This document shows positions 30,306 through 43,397 of a stretch of 64,000 nt of DNA, piece by piece. The position numbers were made by a program, and so were the translations under genes. The stretch spans positions 1 through 64,000 of the forward strand of contig VXMJ01000017.1 of assembly GCA_009841145.1 (NCBI GenBank), in the 5' to 3' direction. Below the pieces are notes generated by a model. The model was not told the origin of the DNA and made no database searches. It saw nothing but the letters and a program-made list of their open reading frames with translations. This DNA is from Caldilineaceae bacterium SB0661_bin_34 (lineage in GTDB: Bacteria; Chloroflexota; Anaerolineae; Caldilineales; Caldilineaceae). Numbering within the stretch: position 1 is the stretch's first letter; every line of letters starts with the position of its first letter.

Positions 30306-31379
30306 TCAGCCAGCCTGCGAATGCGGAACAACCTCGTTGTTGTATCCCAAAATCTGTTGCCCGGGTGCACACGCTTCAGCCAGCCGTCGCTGGTTTACCG
30401 ACCCCAGGCGGGGCCAACGGGGTTTCGTGCTACGGGGCAATGCGCTCACTTCCCCGAGCCAACGGGAATCGTACAGCTGAGGCCCAACAAACTCGATAAA
30501 ACGGGTCATTTCCTCCTGCGGCGATTCCAACAGGGACTCGAAGCGTATCGAAAGGACTTGGTCTGCCGGAAGCGTATTGAGAAACTCGATGCCGCGTTTG
30601 ATCATGCCACTCCAGAGCCAGCCGAAAGTCGCCAGATCCACGTTGGCTGCCATGATTCGCTTTGGTGGGATGAATCGTCCATGGATCGCGGCGACAATAT
30701 GTACCCACGGACTACTGCCCCGCCAGTTCTTCGGTGAGAACGGATCGAGTCCGACCCTATCGAACGCGGACGCGGTCATTGCCATGGCGCGAAAGCCAGG
30801 GTGGTTGTACATGGAAAGAGCCGTGTCTCTACCATCGCGGAAAATGTGGACGAAGCGGGCGTCCGGGAAATAGCATGCCAGTACAGGGCTCATGGGAAGT
30901 GTGCCTCCGGAGCGTTCCACCCATAGCTTCCTGCCGAAGTGTCTCGTCAGCCATTCGAAGACGAATCGGTAGTGGTCCGTGAGGCGATGGCGTTCCCTAG
31001 AGCGCAGCTCGGGCCCCAATTCGTCCCACAGCTTCTCGCAGTCGTCGGTGAGATGCGGCAGCGTGGTGCACATAATCGGCGGAACATCCTGTCGTGAAAA
31101 CCGTCTGCCCGCATCCAATGGATAAATCAACTCACTGATCGATACATCACTTTCCAGAAACGCGCGCAACCCAGGCGCAGGGGTGTTCAAACGCCGGAAC
31201 GCGGCTTCTCCACTCACCCTCGGCGCGCGCACCGCACCCGGTCCCAGATAGGAGAAGAATTCCGATATGCTCAAGAGTTGCGGGTGCTTTCGCATCATGG
31301 CTGACAGCAGGGTGGATCCACACCGTCCGGTGCTGACGACAAACACCGGTGCGAGCGTTGCTTCATCGCGTTCATCCAT
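30306..31379 (-). CDS. Sulfotransferase family protein
   Basis: A 357-residue PAPS-dependent sulfotransferase-fold protein. The ATG at 31379 is chosen; the frame begins 17 codons earlier at a TTG. The 5'-phosphosulfate loop is VVSTGRCGSTLLSAMM near residue 10-25 and the 3'-phosphate motif is FVHIFRDGRDTALSMYN. These place it with the bacterial Sulfotransfer_3-type enzymes that sulfate hydroxyl groups of lipids, carbohydrates or secondary metabolites. It is the third gene on this strand after the GPP34-P450 fusion and another sulfotransferase, but a 413-bp gap separates it from them. Confidence 0.87.
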   Translation of the reverse strand: MDERDEATLAPVFVVSTGRCGSTLLSAMMRKHPQLLSISEFFSYLGPGAVRAPRVSGEAAFRRLNTPAPGLRAFLESDVSISELIYPLDAGRRFSRQDVPPIMCTTLPHLTDDCEKLWDELGPELRSRERHRLTDHYRFVFEWLTRHFGRKLWVERSGGTLPMSPVLACYFPDARFVHIFRDGRDTALSMYNHPGFRAMAMTASAFDRVGLDPFSPKNWRGSSPWVHIVAAIHGRFIPPKRIMAANVDLATFGWLWSGMIKRGIEFLNTLPADQVLSIRFESLLESPQEEMTRFIEFVGPQLYDSRWLGEVSALPRSTKPRWPRLGSVNQRRLAEACAPGQQILGYNNEVVPHSQAG

Positions 31380-31792
31380 CGGATTGTTTTCGTGTGATTG
31401 AGTCTGTTCCCGATACGATTTCTTTCTCAAGACGAGTGTTCAATCATCGGTGGGGGGCTCTTCCTTTGGGGGAGGGAGAAGGGATGGTTCCCTCAATGGT
31501 TGACGGGTTCCACCGACACCGTTTCCAACCACCTTGACCACGGTGGTCCAGTCTGGACACCAAGAGCATTTTGGGGCTTGTATACCGAACCAGACAGCCG
31601 GCATATCGTGTTCGCGGATCGTTGGGGGTGCCCGACGACAACATCCCTCGCCGTGTACAAGCCCCGGTCCCGTGGGCCAAACTGGTTTGCTGGGAGCGAA
31701 CCAGGATGTTGGCCATCGCCATTCAGGGGATCCCACCCGATCCCCGCCGATTGTCGCATTTCAAGAACTGGAAGACTGCGGAGAGGGCGTCG
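31380..31792. other. Intergenic between two sulfotransferase genes, no gene recognised
   Basis: About 413 bp without conserved coding signal. It may hold a promoter for the downstream sulfotransferase on the minus strand, but no convincing box is seen. Confidence 0.4.
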
Positions 31793-32911
31793 CTAACCTG
31801 GAGGTGAATAGTTCCAGTGATCCAGTACAAATCCCCAATCGCGGTCCACCACATCAATGACCGACTGGTCAATCTGGTAGCGGTTCTGGCGATAATTGGA
31901 TATCGTCTGCAGATAGATGTCCATGTGTTGTCGGGCCTGATCCCAATCGGGCAGCGCCAGGTCCGCGTAGATGCGCGCCATCTCGCTCATGGGATCGGTC
32001 ACGAGGTCTTCAAACAGGACTTCAGTGAAATTCCCGGCAGGAATCAGTACCCGGTCCTGTAGATACCGGCGCATGACCACGGCATAGTCGCGGCGTACGG
32101 TTCTCTCGATTTCGCTCCAGTCGGAGTCGGCTAATTGGAACACGGGCGCCAGTGTCCGACGCATCCGTAACAGGGACGGATAGACAACATAGGGATTGCG
32201 CATGATATTGACGAACTTGGCCTCCGGGAAGAGGCGCAGCATATGGGCAATCTTGCCCAAGTTCGTAGGACTCTTGAGCACTATGCGGCGTCCATCGGCG
32301 GCCGCGGTTGCCTTGCGCACGACTTCCATGTAGGCATGTTCCCATTGAGCCAGTTCCTGGCCACCTACCCCCCGCAGCAGGCTGTACTTCCCGAAGAAAG
32401 TGGAACTCAGATCCGGGAATGTGAGGCTGTGGATGTACGACATGTGGCAGGAGCATGCCAACGCGAGTTCCTCCTCCTGAGGTGCATCCAAGGACACGGC
32501 TACATTGTCCATCGGTCGCGTGGCCGGCATGTTCCGGGCCACCGCACGCCGAAGCCAATTCCAGTGTCGTACGGTGAGGTAGGCACTTGGACACAATGCC
32601 TGCAGCGTTGTTACCGAAGCATGGTTGTGGTCCTGCACAAGCAAGTTGTGGAGATGTGTCGTACCGGTACGCCCATATCCCAGAATTATGAGGGGAGGCT
32701 TGGTGAGTGTGGTGTTGTCCACGAGGCGTCCGTAACGCAGGCTTTCGACCACACGCAGCGGCAGCGTCAGGGCGCTGGCCAGCAGGACGGTTGCCAGACG
32801 GCCCCGATGGTTCCGGGCAACACCACCGTTCGCGCGAATGAGGTGCAGCCAGACGGACAATGGTGCCAACGAGAAAGGGTGCAGAGGCACTTTGGAGGAC
32901 GAGTCTGACAT
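31793..32911 (-). CDS. Sulfotransferase family protein
   Basis: A 372-residue sulfotransferase-fold protein beginning MSDSSSKVPLHPFS (ATG at 32911). A hydrophobic N-terminal region precedes the PAPS 5'-phosphosulfate loop IILGYGRTGTTHLHNLL; the 3'-phosphate motif is KFVNIMRNPYVVYPSLL. SLDAPQEEELALA and VLKSPTNLGKI are features of Sulfotransfer_3 members related to those acting on long-chain or isoprenoid substrates. The start lies only 41 bp after the GPP34-P450 stop, so the two genes are probably cotranscribed and act in one pathway: oxidation by the P450, then sulfation. Confidence 0.88.
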   Translation of the reverse strand: MSDSSSKVPLHPFSLAPLSVWLHLIRANGGVARNHRGRLATVLLASALTLPLRVVESLRYGRLVDNTTLTKPPLIILGYGRTGTTHLHNLLVQDHNHASVTTLQALCPSAYLTVRHWNWLRRAVARNMPATRPMDNVAVSLDAPQEEELALACSCHMSYIHSLTFPDLSSTFFGKYSLLRGVGGQELAQWEHAYMEVVRKATAAADGRRIVLKSPTNLGKIAHMLRLFPEAKFVNIMRNPYVVYPSLLRMRRTLAPVFQLADSDWSEIERTVRRDYAVVMRRYLQDRVLIPAGNFTEVLFEDLVTDPMSEMARIYADLALPDWDQARQHMDIYLQTISNYRQNRYQIDQSVIDVVDRDWGFVLDHWNYSPPG

Positions 32912-32952
32912 GCAACCATTTCTGCCGGGGCGCACTTGGTCCTGCAAATCTG

Positions 32953-34956
32953 TCAGACGGTCCCCGATGCTCGGCGCCGACGCACCTGGCGAATTTTGAA
33001 CGAGGCCGCGGGGTGTGGCAGGGGCATCTGTTTGATGTCAATGGGCCGGTGGGGCCGCTCGAGTACAAGCTCGGTCTCGCGGACAATGGTCGCCATTGTG
33101 ACCGCGATCTGCACCTCGGCAAACCCGCTGCCCAAACAGCGATGTCTGCCCACGCCAAAAGGCGCAAAGGCTCCCGGTTTCCGATGCTCCGCCCTCCCCC
33201 TCTGGTAGCGGTCGATATCGAAGCGCTCCGGATGTGGAAAGCATGCCGGCAAGTGGTGCGCCACGGTGTTGCCGATGATGACCTGTGCCCCGGCCGGTAC
33301 CAGGTAGCCACCAAATTCAAAGGAGTTGGACACGGTACGCGTCAATCCGGGAATGATCGGATACATGCGCAGCGTCTCAAGGGCGATGCGGTGGGTGACA
33401 TCAAGTTCGGATAGACCCTGTGCCGTCGGTGTGCCCCGATCGAACAGAGCATCGACCTCCGCTGTCATCCGGGCCAGCAACTCCGGGTGCTTCAGAAGCA
33501 CATGGAGCATGAACGCGCAGACACTGGCCGAAGTATCCAACCCCGCGAAATAGGAACCCAGGAAAGCCACCGGCAAGTCGGTCTCGGGCAGAAACTGCGG
33601 ATCGGTCCTATGCAGCTCGAGGAGGTCATCGATGAAGTCCGAATGCCGGTGCCGCCGATTCTCCGGCTGATGCGCCACCAGAAGCGCGGCGTACAACTCC
33701 ATCACCCGTCTGCGCGCCTGCCGGAAGCGCGGCCAATGCATCATGAGCTTCGGCCATTGGTGTACAACCTGGATTTTGAGAAGGGTTTCGAGAAAGACTG
33801 TCAGATCGTTGATGTAGGGCTGTGGCGACAGACTGGTCAGGAGCAGTCCGATCTGTTCGGCGACGATTCTCTGGAGGGCTGGAAAACCACTCATGGCTTG
33901 GTCCATGGGCCAGGTGTCGATCGCGCGCCGGGTGATGTCAATGACATCGTCCAGCCGGTTCTGGATCACCTTGGAGGAATAGCCTGCCGCCTGCACCTTG
34001 CGCATGCGCATGTGCTCGGGACCATCCATGCTCATCACCGTGCGGCCGCTTCCAGTAGCCGCATCGAAATCCCGCCACAACTCGTTTGAGCGCAAGTGCA
34101 CATGTTCGGCCTTGGTCACGAAAACATTCGCTTCGGGACCCGCCAAGACGATAAAGCGACGGTTGAAGGCCTTGATGCGGAAAATGGGACCGTGCCGTTG
34201 GTATTGGCGGGTGAGGAAAATCCGCAAGTCGCGGCTCATGGCGAAAGCGTGGCCGGCGATGGGCCAACCCGCAACACATGGGATTTGCTGGTGAGGGCGG
34301 GCGGACTTTCGGGACCGGGCAGACGGGGTGTGCTGCCGGAGGGCCGCGGCCACCGTCCGGCCTATCAAATCAAGTCGGGCAACCTGATCGATCCGATCCC
34401 GAACCTGGGCCCGTTCTTCCCCGGAGAGCAGGCTGTCAAATACGCCGCAGGAGGCCGCCAGACTGACGATCAGGGCATCGCGCGGATCCGGGATATCCTG
34501 GCTGAAAAGCACTCTCATGATACGGACATGGACATCTTCCATGTCCGTTCCGTCTACGGACGGGTAGCGACGAATGCGGGAAACCAGGCGCGAGAAAAAG
34601 ACAGGGCCATGGCCTTCGGTTTCCAGGATGCCGCGGGCGGCCAGCCGGTTGATCGCCCTTTGACGGATTTGCTCACCCCGCTCTGCCGTGCGGGCGATCC
34701 AATATGCAGTGTCGTGTGTGTCGGTTGCGTTCGCAATGTCCGCCAGCGTGGGGTCGAGAAAGTCGTCTCCCAAGGGTATCGGGTTGACCAGGATAAGTTG
34801 CTGCAAATCCGTGTCGATTCGGTCTTCCATGGCCAAATCCATCAGCACCGCACCGGCGATGACGATATCCCGGGTATGCGCGGGGAGCGAAACCCGGATG
34901 TTCCCTTGCTCCGTATCCAGAATGAGAAGCAGGATCTCTTCCGTAATTCTCAGCAT
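32953..34956 (-). CDS. GPP34 (GOLPH3-like) domain fused to cytochrome P450
   Basis: A 667-residue fusion. The start MLRITEEILLLILD (ATG at 34956, AAAGAG nine bases upstream) is the normal beginning of bacterial GPP34 proteins. Residues 1-208 give a complete GPP34 domain: AGAVLMDLAMEDRI, NPIPLGDDFLDPTLADI, IRQRAINRLAARGIL, DPRDALIVSLAASCGV. A short linker leads to a full P450 (about 225-655) with I-helix AGLDTS (471-476), ETLR (527-530) and heme loop FGVGRHRCLG with Cys607. GOLPH3 in eukaryotes binds PI4P membranes and retains Golgi enzymes; here the domain may tether the P450 to a membrane or recruit partners. The Trp of the GOLPH3 PI4P site is not evident. No redox partner gene is nearby. 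Confidence 0.9.
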   Translation of the reverse strand: MLRITEEILLLILDTEQGNIRVSLPAHTRDIVIAGAVLMDLAMEDRIDTDLQQLILVNPIPLGDDFLDPTLADIANATDTHDTAYWIARTAERGEQIRQRAINRLAARGILETEGHGPVFFSRLVSRIRRYPSVDGTDMEDVHVRIMRVLFSQDIPDPRDALIVSLAASCGVFDSLLSGEERAQVRDRIDQVARLDLIGRTVAAALRQHTPSARSRKSARPHQQIPCVAGWPIAGHAFAMSRDLRIFLTRQYQRHGPIFRIKAFNRRFIVLAGPEANVFVTKAEHVHLRSNELWRDFDAATGSGRTVMSMDGPEHMRMRKVQAAGYSSKVIQNRLDDVIDITRRAIDTWPMDQAMSGFPALQRIVAEQIGLLLTSLSPQPYINDLTVFLETLLKIQVVHQWPKLMMHWPRFRQARRRVMELYAALLVAHQPENRRHRHSDFIDDLLELHRTDPQFLPETDLPVAFLGSYFAGLDTSASVCAFMLHVLLKHPELLARMTAEVDALFDRGTPTAQGLSELDVTHRIALETLRMYPIIPGLTRTVSNSFEFGGYLVPAGAQVIIGNTVAHHLPACFPHPERFDIDRYQRGRAEHRKPGAFAPFGVGRHRCLGSGFAEVQIAVTMATIVRETELVLERPHRPIDIKQMPLPHPAASFKIRQVRRRRASGTV

Positions 34957-35204
34957 GCACTCATACTCTTTGCCGCAAGCAGTGTCCATCGGCACCGGTG
35001 TTTGCCGCCCATCGTCGTTTCAACCAACGCGTGCGACCCGGCACCGCACATCCCGCACGATCGGCCAGGGAAGGCACCTGCCGTTCCATTGGACCGCGCC
35101 TCGATGAACCGTCAACCAGCGGCGTGACGTACGCTCCCCGGATTGAACGCGTTGCCACCGGCGAAACGGGGCGGACAGTGGGACTTGAGAAGATGCATCA
35201 TCCA

Positions 35205-37121
35205 CTACAGCGACACTGCCGTGCCAATGCCCAGTTCCCTGGCCCGGGCATGGACCAGATCGGCGGAAACCGTGTCCTGGACGGCCAGGCCGACCGACTT
35301 GAAGAACGTAGTCTCTTGGGCGGACGTGCGTCCGGAACAGCGACCCGTGAGCAGGTCACCGAGCGAACCGACAACATGGTCCTCCGTGATGGTTCCGTCG
35401 GCCAGTGGGATCAGCAGGTCGCCGGCTTCCTCCATCATGGCTTCCCGGTCGTCCACATACACCTTCGCGCGTGCGACGGTGGCCGCCGGCACCTCCCGGC
35501 GATCCGGCTGAAACACGCCGACGGCATTGACATGGACCCCTTCCTCCAGATCGCCGTCCGCGAAGACCGGCGTCGCGGAGGTGGTCGCGCAGCATACTAT
35601 GTCGCTGTCCGCCAGCGCCTCGCGCGCAGAGGTCGCGGCCTGATACTCAATGCCATCGGGCAGTTGGCCCCGCAGGTCCTCGATCATCCGCGCCACGTTG
35701 GCCGGGGTCGGGGAGTAGACACTGATCCTTTCGAGACGGCGTACCTCGCTGACGGCCGCCGCCTGGGTCCGCGCCTGCACGCCCGCGCCCAACACGGCTA
35801 GCCGACCGGCTCCGGCAGGAGCCAGCAAATCGGTGGCCAGCCCCGCCACGGCTCCCGTGCGAATGGCCGTCAAGGCACCGCCGTCCATGCCGGCCAACAC
35901 CTTCCCGGTGGCCGCATCCACCAGGAGCACCAGCCCGTGGATTACCGGTTCGCCGCGCGCGGCATTGTCCGGGTAGACGGACACCACCTTGACCGACGTG
36001 TGTCCTGCAGCGGTGTCGTCCCGCATCCAGGCCGGCATCACGAGCGAGATCCCGGCCGTGCCGGGCGGATTGATCTGGGAGCGCACCGGCTGCACGACTT
36101 GGCCGCGGGCCAAAGCCTCAAATGCCGTGCGCATGCCGCCGACCGCCTTGTTCATGGGCAGGCAACGAACCACCTCGTCTCCCGACAGCATCAGGATCGA
36201 GTCGCCTTGTTGGAATTGGGACATGTCATCATCCTTTGGTGCTGCATCGGGATCGGATCTGCGCGGACTTCCCGGGGCAACCTGTACCCGGATCCCCCTT
36301 GCGCGTTCCGTACCGGCGGCGCGTTTGACGGCATCGCTGCCACGTGGTGCCAGGCCGGAATGCAGATCGAGATCGGCCCTGTCAAGCAACTGGCCAACCC
36401 GGCCAACCGTGGTGCCAAGCTCACGGGCCAACGACTGCCGGGACCATTGTGCGCTGCCGTCCGCCGGCGCCTCCGACAGCTTGAGCAATAGGCGTTCCAA
36501 ATCCGGACCGGCGTCCTTGCGCGGCCGGCCTGACCGAGGCCTGTCGGTCAGGCCGCCGATTCCCTCCTCCAGGTATCGGCGGCACCAGTGCAGGACCCTG
36601 GGGCTGGCCATATCCAGCCGTTCGCCGATTGCCGGTGCATTCAGGCCCCGATGGGCCAGAAGTACCGCCCGCGCCCGTTGGGCCAGCCGGTTTTCGATCC
36701 GCGGCTGCTGTACCAGTTTCCGAAGTTCCAGGACCTGCTCGTCGGTCAGGTCCACATCCCGGACCGCGCCTCGCTGACCTTGCAGTTCCTGATTGGACCC
36801 CGAGGCCTGTCGCAAGTCCCTAAGTTGCGGTCGCCGCCCCGACTGTCCCGCATTCAGACGGCGCATCAGGATGCCATCGAAGCCGAAATCGGCAAACCGT
36901 CGACGCCACACGCTGACCTGACTGGCTGAAATACCCAGTTGGCCGGCGATGTCTCCGGTGGTGCGGCCGTCCGCGGCCATCAGGATCGCCAGATACCTGC
37001 GCCTCATCGCCTCGCCGGTGGCCGGATTGTTGAGCAGCGCCTCCAGTTGCGCGCGTTCGGACGCGGACAACTCCACGCGGATGGGCGGGCGTCCAATGTG
37101 GGAATTGGATGGGCGGGTCAT
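35205..37121 (-). CDS. Tandem HTH (IS630-type) fused to ornithine cyclodeaminase/mu-crystallin-family enzyme
   Basis: One uninterrupted 638-codon frame. Residues 1-110 and about 120-215 are two homeodomain-like modules of the IS630 transposase N-terminus (for example YLAILMAADGRTTGDIAGQL and LTDRPRSGRPRKD), without a DDE domain. After a basic linker, residue 300 is the Met of a complete 339-residue cyclodeaminase: SVKVVSVYP, the NAD(P) loop LGAGVQARTQ and HVNAVGVFQPDRREV. The family includes ornithine cyclodeaminase, ketimine reductases and alanine dehydrogenase-like enzymes. A good ribosome-binding site precedes Met300, so a stand-alone enzyme (35205-36224) may also be made. It may be an enzyme-regulator fusion or a gene fusion from a decayed transposase. 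Confidence 0.78.
   Translation of the reverse strand: MTRPSNSHIGRPPIRVELSASERAQLEALLNNPATGEAMRRRYLAILMAADGRTTGDIAGQLGISASQVSVWRRRFADFGFDGILMRRLNAGQSGRRPQLRDLRQASGSNQELQGQRGAVRDVDLTDEQVLELRKLVQQPRIENRLAQRARAVLLAHRGLNAPAIGERLDMASPRVLHWCRRYLEEGIGGLTDRPRSGRPRKDAGPDLERLLLKLSEAPADGSAQWSRQSLARELGTTVGRVGQLLDRADLDLHSGLAPRGSDAVKRAAGTERARGIRVQVAPGSPRRSDPDAAPKDDDMSQFQQGDSILMLSGDEVVRCLPMNKAVGGMRTAFEALARGQVVQPVRSQINPPGTAGISLVMPAWMRDDTAAGHTSVKVVSVYPDNAARGEPVIHGLVLLVDAATGKVLAGMDGGALTAIRTGAVAGLATDLLAPAGAGRLAVLGAGVQARTQAAAVSEVRRLERISVYSPTPANVARMIEDLRGQLPDGIEYQAATSAREALADSDIVCCATTSATPVFADGDLEEGVHVNAVGVFQPDRREVPAATVARAKVYVDDREAMMEEAGDLLIPLADGTITEDHVVGSLGDLLTGRCSGRTSAQETTFFKSVGLAVQDTVSADLVHARARELGIGTAVSL
36232..36236 (-). 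promoter_or_regulatory. Internal ribosome-binding site for the cyclodeaminase part
   Basis: AAGGA on the minus strand lies seven bases before the ATG at 36224, inside the fusion frame. It supports an independent start giving a normal-length cyclodeaminase of 339 residues (35205-36224), besides or instead of the fused form. Confidence 0.55.
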
Positions 37122-37535
37122 GTCTCGGGTTTTGTTTTGTCTGTGGACTTTCCAAGTGTGTACCGGCCCGTGCGCGGCGGTGGCAGGAGCGACGGCACCC
37201 CCCGAAGCCATCCGGAACAGTCTGCCGTGTCCATCCGCTGCACCGGGACGGTCCATGCTGCACAACCGCGGCGAGGCTGAATCCACAGTCCCTGGCCACC
37301 GACATGGGCCGTGGCCGGATTGAATTCGTGCGCGGAGGGGATCAGCATACACAATTGAAACCGCGGGCCATCGACGCATGCGCGGATGGTGATTTACCAA
37401 GTGGCCGCGGGACATGCACGTCCGCACCCCCCTTGGTTGCCTGCCGACGGTGGACCCGTCCTGTAGGATTCCTTCCGCTCGTCCGCCCCCTGGTGGTGCA
37501 GGACTTCCACAAAGCAGCTTCAAGGCAGGTAAAAC
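37122..37535. other. Intergenic region between divergent HTH-cyclodeaminase and SDR genes
   Basis: About 414 bp without a recognisable gene. It should contain the divergent promoters, but I see no strong box. Confidence 0.4.
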
Positions 37536-38315
37536 ATGACGCTCACAGGCCGCAATGCTCTCATCACCGGCGCCACCAAGGGCATCGGACGCGCCATTGC
37601 CCTGGCCATGGCGGAAGCCGGCGCCAACATCGCAGCGACAGGACGCAACGAGGAAGAGTTGGCCAGCCTGCAGAGCGAAGTCACGCGGATGGGTCCCGCC
37701 TGTCATACCCGGGCCGTGGACTTGTCGCTCGAGGATGCCGCGGCCACCGTGTTCGAGTTTGCCAAGTCCACCTGCGGGAACATCCACGTCCTCGTCAACA
37801 ACGCGGGCATCGGCTCCAGCCAGCAGCCAATGCTGGTATCGGAATACGACGACACGTTTTGGCACCTGATGATGCACGTCAACCTGACCGTCCCCTACCA
37901 GCTCGTGCGCATGGTGTTGCCGGAAATGATCGAACGCCGACACGGACGCATCATCAACGTGTCTTCCATCAACGGCAAGGTGCCGTCCTCCTTCGGCGTG
38001 GCCTACACCGCCAGCAAGCATGGGCTGCTTGGGGTGACCAAGACGGTTGCCCTCGAGAACGTGGTGCACGGCATCACGTCCAATGCCATCTGCCCCGGAC
38101 CGGTCGTGTCCAAGTTGAACAATGCCCGCATCCAATTCGACGCGGACCGCCTGGGTCGCAGTTTCGAGGAGCAGGAGGAAACCATGACCGGCCACGGCCG
38201 GCGGATGGTGCCGGAGGAAATCGCACCCCTGGCCGTCTTCCTGGCCGGCGACGGCGCGGCCATGATCAACGGCCAGTCGCTGAACGTGGACGCCGGCAAC
38301 GTGATGGCAGCCTAA
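37536..38315 (+). CDS. Short-chain dehydrogenase/reductase
   Basis: A 259-residue classical SDR. The cofactor loop is TGATKGIG, the structural NNAG is present, catalytic Ser lies in NVSSINGKV, and the YTASK motif supplies Tyr and Lys. The C-terminal SLNVDAGNVMAA is the usual end. These enzymes interconvert hydroxyl and keto groups with NAD(P)H; a sugar or hydroxy-acid substrate is likely from the setting but not proven. The ATG follows AGGCAGGT at a normal distance. It ends ten bases before the convergent stop of a Gfo/Idh/MocA gene. Confidence 0.93.
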   Translation: MTLTGRNALITGATKGIGRAIALAMAEAGANIAATGRNEEELASLQSEVTRMGPACHTRAVDLSLEDAAATVFEFAKSTCGNIHVLVNNAGIGSSQQPMLVSEYDDTFWHLMMHVNLTVPYQLVRMVLPEMIERRHGRIINVSSINGKVPSSFGVAYTASKHGLLGVTKTVALENVVHGITSNAICPGPVVSKLNNARIQFDADRLGRSFEEQEETMTGHGRRMVPEEIAPLAVFLAGDGAAMINGQSLNVDAGNVMAA

Positions 38316-38325
38316 CCAGGCTGTT

Positions 38326-39381
38326 TCAATCCTCCAGGGGCAGGCTGATGCGCCGACCCTCCTGTGCGGACCGGTAGGCCGCCAGAACCATTTCCACCGA
38401 AACCCGTCCCTCTTCCGCCGTGATGGTTTCGTCCGTTCGACCCAGCACGTAGTCCACGAAGGGCCGGGGCACGTTGCCGATGCGCGCCCCGTGCGTGTCG
38501 GGAATGTCCATGGGAATCTCGGTCCAGGCCTTGTCTCCCTGTCGGATGTAGCGCAGGGCGCAGGCGTCGGCAGGCCGCGGCGCGGAGGTCGAAGGACCAT
38601 CGTCGTAGTCTTGGATGATGGTGCCTTCGTCCCCGTAGATTTCGGTGGTGTTGACCCCGGCCACCGTGGTCGAGGCGTTGAACAGGAACCCCATCTCGCC
38701 CTTGCCGAAGCGATAGACGGCGATGCCGGTATCGTCGGTGTCGATGGGCGTCACGATGCGATCAATTTCGGCCATCACCGACACCGGCTGTCCCAACAGC
38801 CAGTAGAACCAGTCCGCCGGATGGCTGGCATCGTCGAAGAACATGCCGATGTTGGCTTCCGGATCAAAGTGCCAGCGGCTGGGGCTGTTGACGAACTGCG
38901 GATTCAGCAGCACACCGATGCAGTGGCGGCGGCGCACCACGGAGACGTTGCCGACGACCCCTTCATCCAACAGCCGCTTGATAGCCTGGTTGGAGGGATC
39001 CTGGCGCATCTGGAAGGCCATGCTGAACTTGACACCGCTGTCGTTGACGGCCTTGATGATGCGGTCGCAGTCGGCCAGTGTCGTGGCCATGGGTTTTTGC
39101 AGCAGGATGTGCTTCCCGGCCGCAGCCGCCAATTCCACCATGTCGGCATGGCGGTTGGTTTCGATGCCGATCATCACCGCGTCAATGTCGGGATCCTCGA
39201 CCACGGCGGCCGCGCGGTCCCGAAACTCATGGCCGTAATTCGCCGCGGCGGCTTGGCCGCGCTCGCGATTGTCGTCCCAAGAGGCAACCACTTCGGCGTC
39301 GGGAAAGTCCCGCAACACTCCGCAGTAGGCGCCCACATGCCCGTGGGCATGGCTCAACACGCCCAACCGTACCTTGTCCAT
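38326..39381 (-). CDS. Gfo/Idh/MocA family oxidoreductase
   Basis: A 351-residue enzyme beginning MDKVRLGVLSHAHGHVG; an in-frame GTG 12 bases upstream is possible. The Rossmann domain covers about 1-125 with VMIGIETNRHADMV and LLQKPMATTLADCD, which holds the conserved Lys of the (E)KP motif. A C-terminal alpha/beta domain follows, with HPADWFYWLLG. The family oxidises or reduces sugars, inositols and related polyols with NAD(P). It is the last gene of a minus-strand run DapA-like, PhyH, Gfo, suggesting breakdown of a polyhydroxylated compound. Confidence 0.92.
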   Translation of the reverse strand: MDKVRLGVLSHAHGHVGAYCGVLRDFPDAEVVASWDDNRERGQAAAANYGHEFRDRAAAVVEDPDIDAVMIGIETNRHADMVELAAAAGKHILLQKPMATTLADCDRIIKAVNDSGVKFSMAFQMRQDPSNQAIKRLLDEGVVGNVSVVRRRHCIGVLLNPQFVNSPSRWHFDPEANIGMFFDDASHPADWFYWLLGQPVSVMAEIDRIVTPIDTDDTGIAVYRFGKGEMGFLFNASTTVAGVNTTEIYGDEGTIIQDYDDGPSTSAPRPADACALRYIRQGDKAWTEIPMDIPDTHGARIGNVPRPFVDYVLGRTDETITAEEGRVSVEMVLAAYRSAQEGRRISLPLED

Positions 39382-39414: not shown

Positions 39415-40269
39415 CTAAACCGCGAACAACTTGTTGCGCAGGACCGTTTGGTTCTCGTAGATCGACCCGCCCTTGAGTGCCGGCGGAAGCGGCATGCGCA
39501 CTGGCACATCGGTCACCCGGGCCTCGTAGGTCGGATCCCCGCGCAGAATGTTGTCGTTGAAGCTGTCCCAGTCGGACACCCCCAGCAGCGGCCAGGCATC
39601 AATGGCGGCCATCTGGAACAGGAGCAGCCGACGGGGATGCGCCGAGACATTCTTGGCCGAGGCGTGGAGCGTGCGCACGTGGTGAAGTGAAATGCCGCCG
39701 GCATGGACCTCCATCAGCTCCGCCTTGTCGGCATCCGCCACTTCCTCGGTGACCGCTCCGGCAAAGTAGCCGTCCTGATGGTGATCAAGAATCGGCCCCC
39801 GGTGGGAGTCGGGAATGCACAGCATGCAGCCATTCTCCTCCAGCGTGTCGTCCATGCAAACCCCCACGGCCAGCAGGTCGTCGTTGGTATGGGGATAGAA
39901 GGCCCAGTCCTGGTGCCATTCGATGGGACTGCCAAAATGCGGCGACTTCATGTTGAGCTTGTCGCCGTTGGTGCGCACGCCGGGGCCGATCAACTCCTCC
40001 ACGATGTCCAGGATGCCGTCGTGGTTCATGATGTCCCGGTACACCTGATGCTGCTCAACCGGGGCCTTGAGGCGACGCAGGCGCGGTTCCTCGGGCGTGT
40101 GCTCCGGCTCCAGGTCGAACACGTCGGTGTGTTCGGTGACGGTGCGGGACTGCTCGACAAAGTAGTCCGTGACTTCGCGCAGGGCCAGCACCTCATCCAC
40201 GCTCAAGACATCCTCCACCACAAGGAAGCCCTTCTCCTCGTAGGTGTCCTTCTGTTGACGCGACAGCAT
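39415..40269 (-). CDS. Phytanoyl-CoA dioxygenase (PhyH) family protein
   Basis: A 284-residue Fe(II)/2-oxoglutarate-dependent oxygenase. The ATG at 40269 has AAGGAG nine bases upstream. The iron ligands are the His and Asp of IEWHQDWAF and a distal His in LHHVRTLHAS. The N-terminal YEEKGFLVVEDVLS is typical. Family members hydroxylate a wide range of small molecules, not only phytanoyl-CoA. It sits 33 bp upstream of the Gfo/Idh/MocA gene and downstream of a DapA-like lyase, in one transcription unit. Confidence 0.92.
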   Translation of the reverse strand: MLSRQQKDTYEEKGFLVVEDVLSVDEVLALREVTDYFVEQSRTVTEHTDVFDLEPEHTPEEPRLRRLKAPVEQHQVYRDIMNHDGILDIVEELIGPGVRTNGDKLNMKSPHFGSPIEWHQDWAFYPHTNDDLLAVGVCMDDTLEENGCMLCIPDSHRGPILDHHQDGYFAGAVTEEVADADKAELMEVHAGGISLHHVRTLHASAKNVSAHPRRLLLFQMAAIDAWPLLGVSDWDSFNDNILRGDPTYEARVTDVPVRMPLPPALKGGSIYENQTVLRNKLFAV

Positions 40270-40400
40270 GATGATCAACTCCTTGGACCTTTGGGCCTCG
40301 GCAGATTTCTGCCTGCATGGTGCATTACACGGTCGGAACGGAAATTATATGGCAGCAGCGGCGGCGACCCGTTGTCGGCCCCATCCAAACGTTTGCCCCG

Positions 40401-41322: not shown

Positions 41323-41530
41323 CCGGTCTCCAGAACCTACGCTACCCTGTCAAGGTCCGGGATAATCGAACCATGATGGCTGGCTGTCTGGTAGACGCTT
41401 CACGGACCGTGCGCGTACCTCACGGCAGTGCGACTTACGGGTCTCCACGTCCCTTTCTTCGCCGGCGGACCTCGCCGGCCCGGGGAGCGCGTTCAGGGTT
41501 CGGGCCGGCTCCGTGTGACCCGTGTACGCC
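41323..41530 (-). ncRNA. Probable omega (reRNA) RNA of TnpB, overlapping the tnpB 3' end
   Basis: The 3' end of tnpB and the following bases to the right end are highly conserved with the tnpB-less copy at 48 kb, including GGAGACC, AAGGGACGTGGAGACC and GCGTCTACCAGACAG on the minus strand. Conservation outside the protein, at the place where TnpB guide RNAs lie, suggests the scaffold. The guide would be the flanking DNA just below 41323. Exact ends are unknown. Confidence 0.5.
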
Positions 41531-42666
41531 TGGATATTGCGGGCGGCGTTCTCGTCCCGGTCGCACTCGAACCCGCACCGGTTGCAGCGGTAGGTGCGTT
41601 CCGACAGCAGCAGCGACTGCTTCACGGCCCCGCACGCACTGCACGTCTTTGAGGACGGATACCAGCGGTCCACCTTCTCGAAGGCGGTTCCGTACCAACC
41701 GCACTTGTACTCCAGCTGCCGCACGAATTCGGACATGCCGGCATCGCTGATCGCCCGGGCCAGTCTGCGGTTGCACTTCATGCCGTCGATGTTGAGCGTC
41801 TCCACCTTCACGGTGCCGCCGCGTTTGGCTATCTGCGTGGTGGCCTTGTGGTGGTGGTCGGCTCTCAGGTTGGCAACGTCGATGTGCAACTGCCTGCGCT
41901 TGGCGTACAGGTCGTCCCTGCGCTTGGATGGGTTGTGCTTGCCGTGCGTATTGAGGCTGCGGGCGATGGCCTTGTCCAGACGGCGCAGCGACTTCAACTT
42001 GGAAGCCAGGGCCTGCGGATTGGCCACCTCCGTCGTTGCATCCCCATCCCACACAACGGCCAGCGTCTTCACGCCCATGTCGACGCCCACCGTGGGTCCG
42101 GGCCTTGGCGGGGCTGGCTCGTCGGCGGTGTGCACCTGGATGGACGCGAACCAGCGTTGGCCGGACTTGGACACCGTGACTTCACCGATGTCTCCTTCAA
42201 ACCGCAGTGCCTCCCGCATCCGCACCCAGCCCACGACCGGCAACCGGATTTTCCGGCCGTCCACCGGGACCGTGTTGCGCCCGTTGGAGGCCGTGTAGGC
42301 CATTTTCCGGTGCTTCTTTCTGTGTGGCGGAAACCCTACCTTGCGGGGCTGTTCGCCGCGCTTCCGGGCCTTGCAGTAGTCGCCCCATCCGTCCAACCCC
42401 GTGCCCATGTGGATGATCGCGTTCTTGGCAGCCGCCTGGGGCAAGCATCCGCACCACGGGAAAAGGTCAAACTTGACGGCGTTGAACCGTTTGCGCAGGT
42501 CCATGTCCGACAGCCATTCGCCGGACTTGCCGTCCCCCGTGAACCAGGAGGCCCGGAATTCGTCCCGCGCCCAGTTGGCCGCCACGCGCGCATAGCCGCA
42601 GTGCTGGGCCAGCAGCGACGCCTGCTGGGCGTTCGGGTCCAGGGCGATGCGGTGGGAGCGGATCAC
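41350..42666 (-). CDS. tnpB: TnpB, RNA-guided RuvC-type nuclease of IS607
   Basis: A 438-residue TnpB. The GTG at 42666 overlaps the tnpA stop (GTGA), which fixes the start. The RuvC triad is complete: Asp in VGVDMGVKTLAVV, Glu in VKVETLNIDGM and Asp in CDRDENAARNI. A zinc ribbon CSACG...CNRCG lies between the last two. The N-terminal wedge domain begins IRSHRIALDPNAQQ. TnpB nucleases cut DNA matching a guide RNA derived from the element's right end, aiding element retention. All key residues are present, so it may be active. Confidence 0.94.
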   Translation of the reverse strand: MIRSHRIALDPNAQQASLLAQHCGYARVAANWARDEFRASWFTGDGKSGEWLSDMDLRKRFNAVKFDLFPWCGCLPQAAAKNAIIHMGTGLDGWGDYCKARKRGEQPRKVGFPPHRKKHRKMAYTASNGRNTVPVDGRKIRLPVVGWVRMREALRFEGDIGEVTVSKSGQRWFASIQVHTADEPAPPRPGPTVGVDMGVKTLAVVWDGDATTEVANPQALASKLKSLRRLDKAIARSLNTHGKHNPSKRRDDLYAKRRQLHIDVANLRADHHHKATTQIAKRGGTVKVETLNIDGMKCNRRLARAISDAGMSEFVRQLEYKCGWYGTAFEKVDRWYPSSKTCSACGAVKQSLLLSERTYRCNRCGFECDRDENAARNIQAYTGHTEPARTLNALPGPARSAGEERDVETRKSHCREVRARSVKRLPDSQPSWFDYPGP

Positions 42667-43274
42667 GTCTGTTCCTGCGCCGACTTCAGCGCATCGATCA
42701 ACTTGCGCGACTTGCGCGAGCGGCTGCCGTACAAACGGGCAGAGAACACGGTGATGCTCTCGAGCACGTCCTGTGCCAGCCCCTCCTCGAAGGAGGGAGG
42801 TTCGCCCTTGTGAATGATCACAATCTCGATGCCTTGCAGCTCGCACATGGCAAACACCAGTTCGGCTCCCAAACGCAGCAGCCGGTCCTTGTGGGTGATC
42901 ACCAGACGTCTGATCCGGCGTTTCATGATCAGGTCCAGCAGTCGCTGTAGCCCGGCCTTGCGGTAGTGCAGGCCACTGCCCAGGTCCCGGATCGTCTCCG
43001 CCGGCCAGCCCTTGGCCGCACAGTAGGCTTCCAAGGCCGCCTGCTGCCGGTCCAGGTCGGCCTTCCGGTCGCGTCCGGACACACGGGCATGGCAAAGGGT
43101 GGGGGCCGCCTCGTTGGCACTTCCGAGCAGGTCCGCCACGGCGTAGTAGCGCGTGCCGCCGCGGGTCTTGCGGGCCGGCAGCAGTTCGCCGGTCTTTTCC
43201 CACTTGCGCAGAACCTCCGGGGTGGTCCCCGGCATCGCCGCGGCCTTGCCGATTTTGACCAGCCTGTTGCCCAT
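42663..43274 (-). CDS. tnpA: TnpA, serine recombinase transposase of IS607
   Basis: A 203-residue recombinase with an N-terminal MerR-type helix-turn-helix (VKIGKAAAMPGTTPEVLRKW, and RGGTRYY) followed by a serine-resolvase domain. The catalytic Ser is in CHARVSGRDRKADLDRQ; HKDRLLRLG and the C-terminal ARLYGSRSRKSRKL are IS607-type signatures. It catalyses element excision and insertion through GG-type core dinucleotides. There is no visible ribosome-binding site, and a TATGAT box lies about 20 bp upstream of the ATG, so the transcript may be nearly leaderless. Confidence 0.94.
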   Translation of the reverse strand: MGNRLVKIGKAAAMPGTTPEVLRKWEKTGELLPARKTRGGTRYYAVADLLGSANEAAPTLCHARVSGRDRKADLDRQQAALEAYCAAKGWPAETIRDLGSGLHYRKAGLQRLLDLIMKRRIRRLVITHKDRLLRLGAELVFAMCELQGIEIVIIHKGEPPSFEEGLAQDVLESITVFSARLYGSRSRKSRKLIDALKSAQEQT

Positions 43275-43397
43275 GATTGGAATAAATTATCATAGGTTAC
43301 AGTCCGCTGCAACTACCCCGTTGGAGCGCGACTGCACCTACTCGGTTTGGGCCAATGCACCGGCGTGCCTGATGGAAGGCACTTCGCTGGCCAAACG

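Follow-up and report, generated by a model that had tools for sequence, protein, structure and literature searches.

The window analyzed in this study, a stretch of 64,000 nucleotides, comprises the first 64 kb of contig C46 (100 kb) in the genome of Caldilineaceae bacterium SB0661_bin_34 (4.34 Mb, 102 contigs, 98% complete). The window harbors a minus-strand gene for 667 aa (34956..32953), in which a GPP34 (GOLPH3-like) domain is joined to a cytochrome P450 in a single open frame, and frame translation revealed no internal stops. The preliminary description had correctly located this gene at 32953-34956, without its strand. The gene starts with an ATG at 34956 and its stop codon ends at 32953; an in-frame GTG at 34995, 39 bases upstream of that ATG, is a possible earlier start. 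The GPP34 domain (residues 4-207; 34336..34947, minus strand) matched Pfam PF05719 with 116.3 bits against a cut-off of 29.1 and covered profile positions 1-199 of 201, and the same coordinates scored 119.5 bits in a genome-wide profile search, which bears out the earlier claim of a complete domain at residues 1-208. The P450 domain (residues 229-642; 33031..34272, minus strand) matched PF00067 with 207.5 bits (cut-off, 22.8) and contained every motif previously read as marking a full P450: AGLDTS of the I-helix with its acid-threonine pair (residues 471-476), ETLR as the ExxR motif (527-530), and the heme motif FGVGRHRCLG (600-609), which fits FxxGxxxCxG and provides the heme cysteine, Cys607. 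A basic linker of about 20 residues (34276..34335, minus strand) separates the domains and is poorly conserved by identity and dN/dS, being 0-27% identical to most relatives, compared with 30-66% for the flanking domains. No transmembrane segment was found in the P450 part, and the highest 19-residue hydropathy value of the fusion (1.65) was located inside GPP34. A structure prediction of the fusion from five sequence rows reached a mean pLDDT of only 32.5 and was discarded.

The next gene after the fusion encodes a sulfotransferase (Sulfotransfer_3, PF13469, 115.6 bits; 31793..32947, minus strand), separated from it by 5 bases, or by approximately 41 bases if translation begins at the ATG of residue 13. 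A second sulfotransferase gene of the same Pfam family (69.6 bits) lies at 30306..31430 on the minus strand. Additionally, an open reading frame at 41350-43293 (minus strand) carries a C-terminal CSACG...CNRCG zinc-finger pattern that, by eye, is typical of TnpB-like transposon proteins. The 1131-aa frame at 35205-38600 (minus strand) contains helix-turn-helix domains followed by an ornithine cyclodeaminase/mu-crystallin domain and probably represents two separate genes sharing a frame, not a fusion.

Intact GPP34-P450 open reading frames numbered 34 in 29 genomes, nearly all belonging to Chloroflexota, with one Spirochaetaceae sponge symbiont. They were collected by way of a 400-genome sample of the phylum, which yielded many GPP34 open reading frames of about 680-710 aa that were then fetched. 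The GPP34 domain came first in all 34 fusions. The close relative at locus L010 belongs to Caldilineaceae bacterium isolate IRC1_bin_30, and the IRC and RHO bins are, we assume, sponge-derived. Another close carrier, Spirochaetaceae bin103 (MPNH01), originated from the sponge Aplysina aerophoba (PMC5649159). Among 198 Spirochaetota genomes sampled, GPP34 was present solely in the fusion-bearing MAG itself, and plasmid records contained GPP34 at 23-31% identity and no GPP34-P450 fusion. A frame break disrupts or splits a few copies elsewhere (L012, L017/L030, and L094). The window's clade (clade A) and a more distant clade of 25 open reading frames (clade B) were about 33% identical in the P450, and an intermediate lineage (L065 and L066) occurred alongside clade B in the same genomes.

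The two halves of the fusion have evolved together, as pairwise identities of the GPP34 and P450 parts were correlated at r = 0.98 over 561 pairs. The nearest relative of the window fusion (95% identity) retained the same frame, and comparison with it gave dN/dS values of 0.20 (GPP34), 0.21 (P450), and 0.76 (linker); both domains are under purifying selection. The GPP34 domains of the fusions fell into one supported set of their tree (SH-aLRT 98), together with stand-alone domains of the L003 type and the GPP34 of an ABC ATPase fusion. The P450 domains of the fusions likewise formed one supported set (97) in a tree of P450s, in which the split copy L017 was the sole unfused member and a P450 from Planktothrix was the nearest outside row. 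Both trees were quickly built and have some long branches; a single fusion event, after which the P450 was lost or swapped a few times, would explain the two of them.

Five GPP34 domains were identified in the window's genome: two in GPP34-P450 fusions (the second on contig C58 of that genome), one in the ABC ATPase fusion, and two as stand-alone proteins. The ABC fusion, a 603-aa open frame of GPP34, ABC transporter ATPase, and TOBE domains (L004:415-2223, minus strand, contig C65), belongs to the same GPP34 lineage as the P450-fused domains and was absent from three other searched genomes of the genus. One stand-alone GPP34 of the fusion lineage (L003:1342-3120, contig C33) is directly followed by a gene for a PhyH-type dioxygenase, and another PhyH gene is found inside the window at 39415-40278.

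A profile built from the GPP34 parts of the fusions matched human GOLPH3 (3kn1, E = 2.5e-9) and Vps74 (2zii, 2.2e-8) in the PDB over most of its length, so the homology to GOLPH3 is real. From the GOLPH3/Vps74 structures, we take the PI4P pocket of human GOLPH3 to consist of W81, R90, R171, and R174; the pocket marks the eukaryotic PI4P effector and not the Pfam family PF05719 as a whole. The aligned residues in the window protein are P, A, E, and R, so that at most one pocket residue (the R174 equivalent) is kept there, and none is kept in clade B. GOLPH3 also has a hairpin that inserts into membranes, and the stretch in its place is basic in the window protein (RLVSRIRRYP) and aromatic, rich in Trp, in clade B. 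The largely lost pocket, together with this basic or aromatic hairpin, makes membrane binding without PI4P plausible. Since the P450 has no transmembrane anchor of its own, and lipid enzymes and membrane transporters are encoded nearby, GPP34 may plausibly serve as the membrane tether of the P450, as the preliminary description had proposed.

Genes for conjugating enzymes accompany the fusion in the window's clade. The order of fusion and sulfotransferase genes is kept at L010, which is 94% identical to the window over 9.4 kb and also conserves the second sulfotransferase. An EcKL/APH kinase gene lies beside the fusion in L011 and L012, and in L091 the EcKL, MFS, and fusion genes stand in a row. 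The MFS exporters of L091 and L011, which come from G038 and the Spirochaetaceae MAG, share 51% identity, and each accompanies the fusion and an EcKL kinase, in differing gene order. Genes for Acyl_transf_3 proteins flank the fusion in L006, L092, L065, and L066. EcKL, Sulfotransfer_3, and Acyl_transf_3 are broad families, and the theme common to the clade may be the oxidation of a lipophilic molecule followed by attachment of a polar or acyl group.

The members of clade B reside among genes of sterol metabolism. Within 9 kb of the fusion, genes were found for a KshA_C-type Rieske oxygenase and an FAD amine-oxidase-like protein (22 of 25 loci each), an MMPL transporter with a sterol-sensing domain (21 of 25), and a methyltransferase with Sterol_MT_C (17 of 25). 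ERG4/ERG24 reductases occurred at eight clade-B loci and were paired in the largest family. These neighbor families were assigned mostly from one representative per cluster, and the counts are not independent, because the genomes are related and some contigs end early. Placement in a bacterial sterol cluster thus holds for clade B, but not for the window fusion: the window's genome had no match for squalene/oxidosqualene cyclase, ERG4/ERG24, KshA_C, or Sterol_MT_C, so that a sterol substrate would have to come from outside, for example from a sponge. The clade-B P450s keep the heme cysteine and have lost the acid-threonine pair of the I-helix, with SV-YLGD in place of AGLDTS and a one-residue deletion (e.g., L067:9098-11122 and L097:8816-10891). 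They may therefore rely on an unusual activation of oxygen or an altered chemistry, which may differ from that of the window enzyme. Within the sterol gene clusters of two Chloroflexota genomes, squalene epoxidase and squalene/oxidosqualene cyclase share one frame (L141:7754-11245, minus strand, 1164 aa; L142:11167-14955, plus strand, 1263 aa).

Genome G003 contains a clade-B fusion together with a sterol locus on one contig (C58 of G003), the fused gene beginning at 49.8 kb and the sterol genes occupying 35.7-46 kb. The latter include a squalene epoxidase-cyclase open reading frame, a separate P450, and ERG24, as well as genes for a Rieske protein and a 3-beta-HSD-like dehydrogenase resembling SdmA and SdmB, which are likely C-4 demethylation genes. 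Against CYP51, the separate P450 scored 356 bits, the window protein 126, and the clade-B protein 70.

The sterol genes around many of the fusions suggest an enzyme placed at the membrane for steroid-like lipids. Putting the domains and neighborhoods together, we consider it about an even chance that the protein is a single-chain monooxygenase, anchored by GPP34, for a lipophilic and probably triterpenoid or steroid-like substrate whose product is then conjugated. The C-terminal P450 would oxidize this substrate, and the N-terminal GPP34 would take the place of a membrane anchor, keeping the catalytic domain on the cytoplasmic side of the membrane near both the substrate and partner enzymes. 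The oxidized product would most likely be conjugated by the sulfotransferase of the next gene in the window, and by an EcKL-type kinase (with export through the MFS protein) or an acyltransferase in the case of the sister genes; the clade-B enzymes would work within their sterol gene clusters. The sterol and triterpenoid neighborhoods, the matches to CYP51 structures, the conjugating neighbors, and the co-varying domains count in favor of this reading. Counting against it are the window genome devoid of sterol genes, the mostly absent PI4P pocket, the breadth of the conjugating families, and the I-helix loss in clade B.

The P450s of the window's clade could instead act on other specialized metabolites, such as terpenes, fatty acids, or polyketides, with a steroid enzyme in clade B only. 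We rate this somewhat below even. The lack of genes for sterol synthesis or modification in the host genome and the low P450 identity between clades A and B agree with it, as does the fact that the best NCBIfam models for the window P450 were terpene oxygenases, at scores far below their cut-offs. However, the best solved structures were CYP51s (e.g., 7jj1 and 6mcw, 126 bits), and the intermediate lineage shares its genomes with clade B.

It is less probable, although still worth considering, that GPP34 is not a lipid tether but a protein-protein adaptor, attaching the P450 to a partner such as a redox protein, a transferase, or a transporter. GOLPH3 itself grips the tails of glycosyltransferases and offers a model for such a role. 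The fold of GPP34 is kept as strongly as that of the P450 even though the pocket residues are mostly lost, many neighboring membrane proteins are available as docking partners, and the same genome encodes a related GPP34 joined to the ATPase of an ABC transporter. Nevertheless, the family has no constant partner encoded nearby, since the neighbors vary among sulfotransferase, kinase, acyltransferase, Rieske, and MMPL proteins.

It is very improbable that these bacteria have the fused P450 as their sterol 14-alpha-demethylase (CYP51). The CYP51 matches in the PDB and the ERG4/ERG24-type reductases near the clade-B genes would fit such an identity, but the far stronger CYP51 match of the separate P450 in the epoxidase-cyclase cluster of G003 led us to reject it and makes the fused P450 a second sterol-associated P450. 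An artefact of assembly or a frameshift joining two adjacent genes deserves practically no credence, as the fragmentation of the window genome and the few split copies elsewhere are outweighed by 33 further intact open reading frames of the same architecture, similar trees for the two domains, and purifying selection.

The preliminary description therefore stands as to the fusion, its completeness, and its uninterrupted frame, and the search for the same architecture in other genomes that it had proposed brought out what it had missed, namely a conserved family with sterol-gene or conjugation-gene neighbors. Its statement that no GPP34-P450 enzyme has been described agrees with our literature searches, which covered few subscription journals and found none. 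The fusion is real and conserved, and is undescribed as far as the literature was searched. Being joined to an enzyme whose substrate can be guessed, it provides a direct handle on the role of GPP34 in bacteria, whether the domain binds partner proteins, sterols, or membranes. The sterol gene clusters known from uncultured bacteria, which bear on the origin of sponge sterols and on sterane biomarkers (PMC10070321), also gain an oxygenase that is undescribed to the same extent. Sterol methylation by bacterial sponge symbionts is already known from that study, the main text of which does not contain the words P450 and CYP51 (PMC10070321). A more far-reaching proposal, which we hold only tentatively and judge unlikely overall, is that bacterial GPP34 is an enzyme-placing module like GOLPH3, which keeps enzymes that modify lipids or glycans at a membrane, and that in sponge symbionts it has been permanently incorporated into a steroid-type P450 whose partners are conjugating enzymes and exporters and which possibly acts on host sterols.

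Compared with known systems, the nearest unfused P450 found was that of Planktothrix agardhii (WP_227398350.1, plasmid p2), which is 38% identical over residues 236-661 and has no GPP34; its gene lies in a triterpenoid-like cluster with squalene-cyclase-type and squalene-synthase-type genes. CYP51 is the nearest P450 among solved structures, and its I-helix, as we understand it, carries a His-Thr pair where the window protein has AGLDTS. Bacterial P450s fused to a second module are known from the P450-reductase CYP102 (BM3) and the CYP51-ferredoxin of Methylococcus, in which the partner module brings electrons. The present fusion likewise combines a P450 and a second module in one chain but differs from the CYP102/BM3-type fusions in that GPP34 is N-terminal and has no known redox cofactor. 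According to a 2025 paper, no GOLPH3-like protein of a prokaryote had been described before (PMC12402492). Our literature search found this paper as the only functional report on a bacterial GPP34, the Streptomyces coelicolor protein SCO4440, with a phenotype in peptidoglycan composition and wall-deficient cells (PMC12402492). SCO4440 is thus a bacterial GPP34 too, but it is described by its GOLPH3 domain only and its gene adjoins that of a carboxypeptidase, without a P450 (PMC12402492). GOLPH3 and Vps74 share the GPP34 profile with the N-terminus of the fusion, which differs from them in being bacterial, joined to an enzyme, and mostly replaced in its PI4P pocket.
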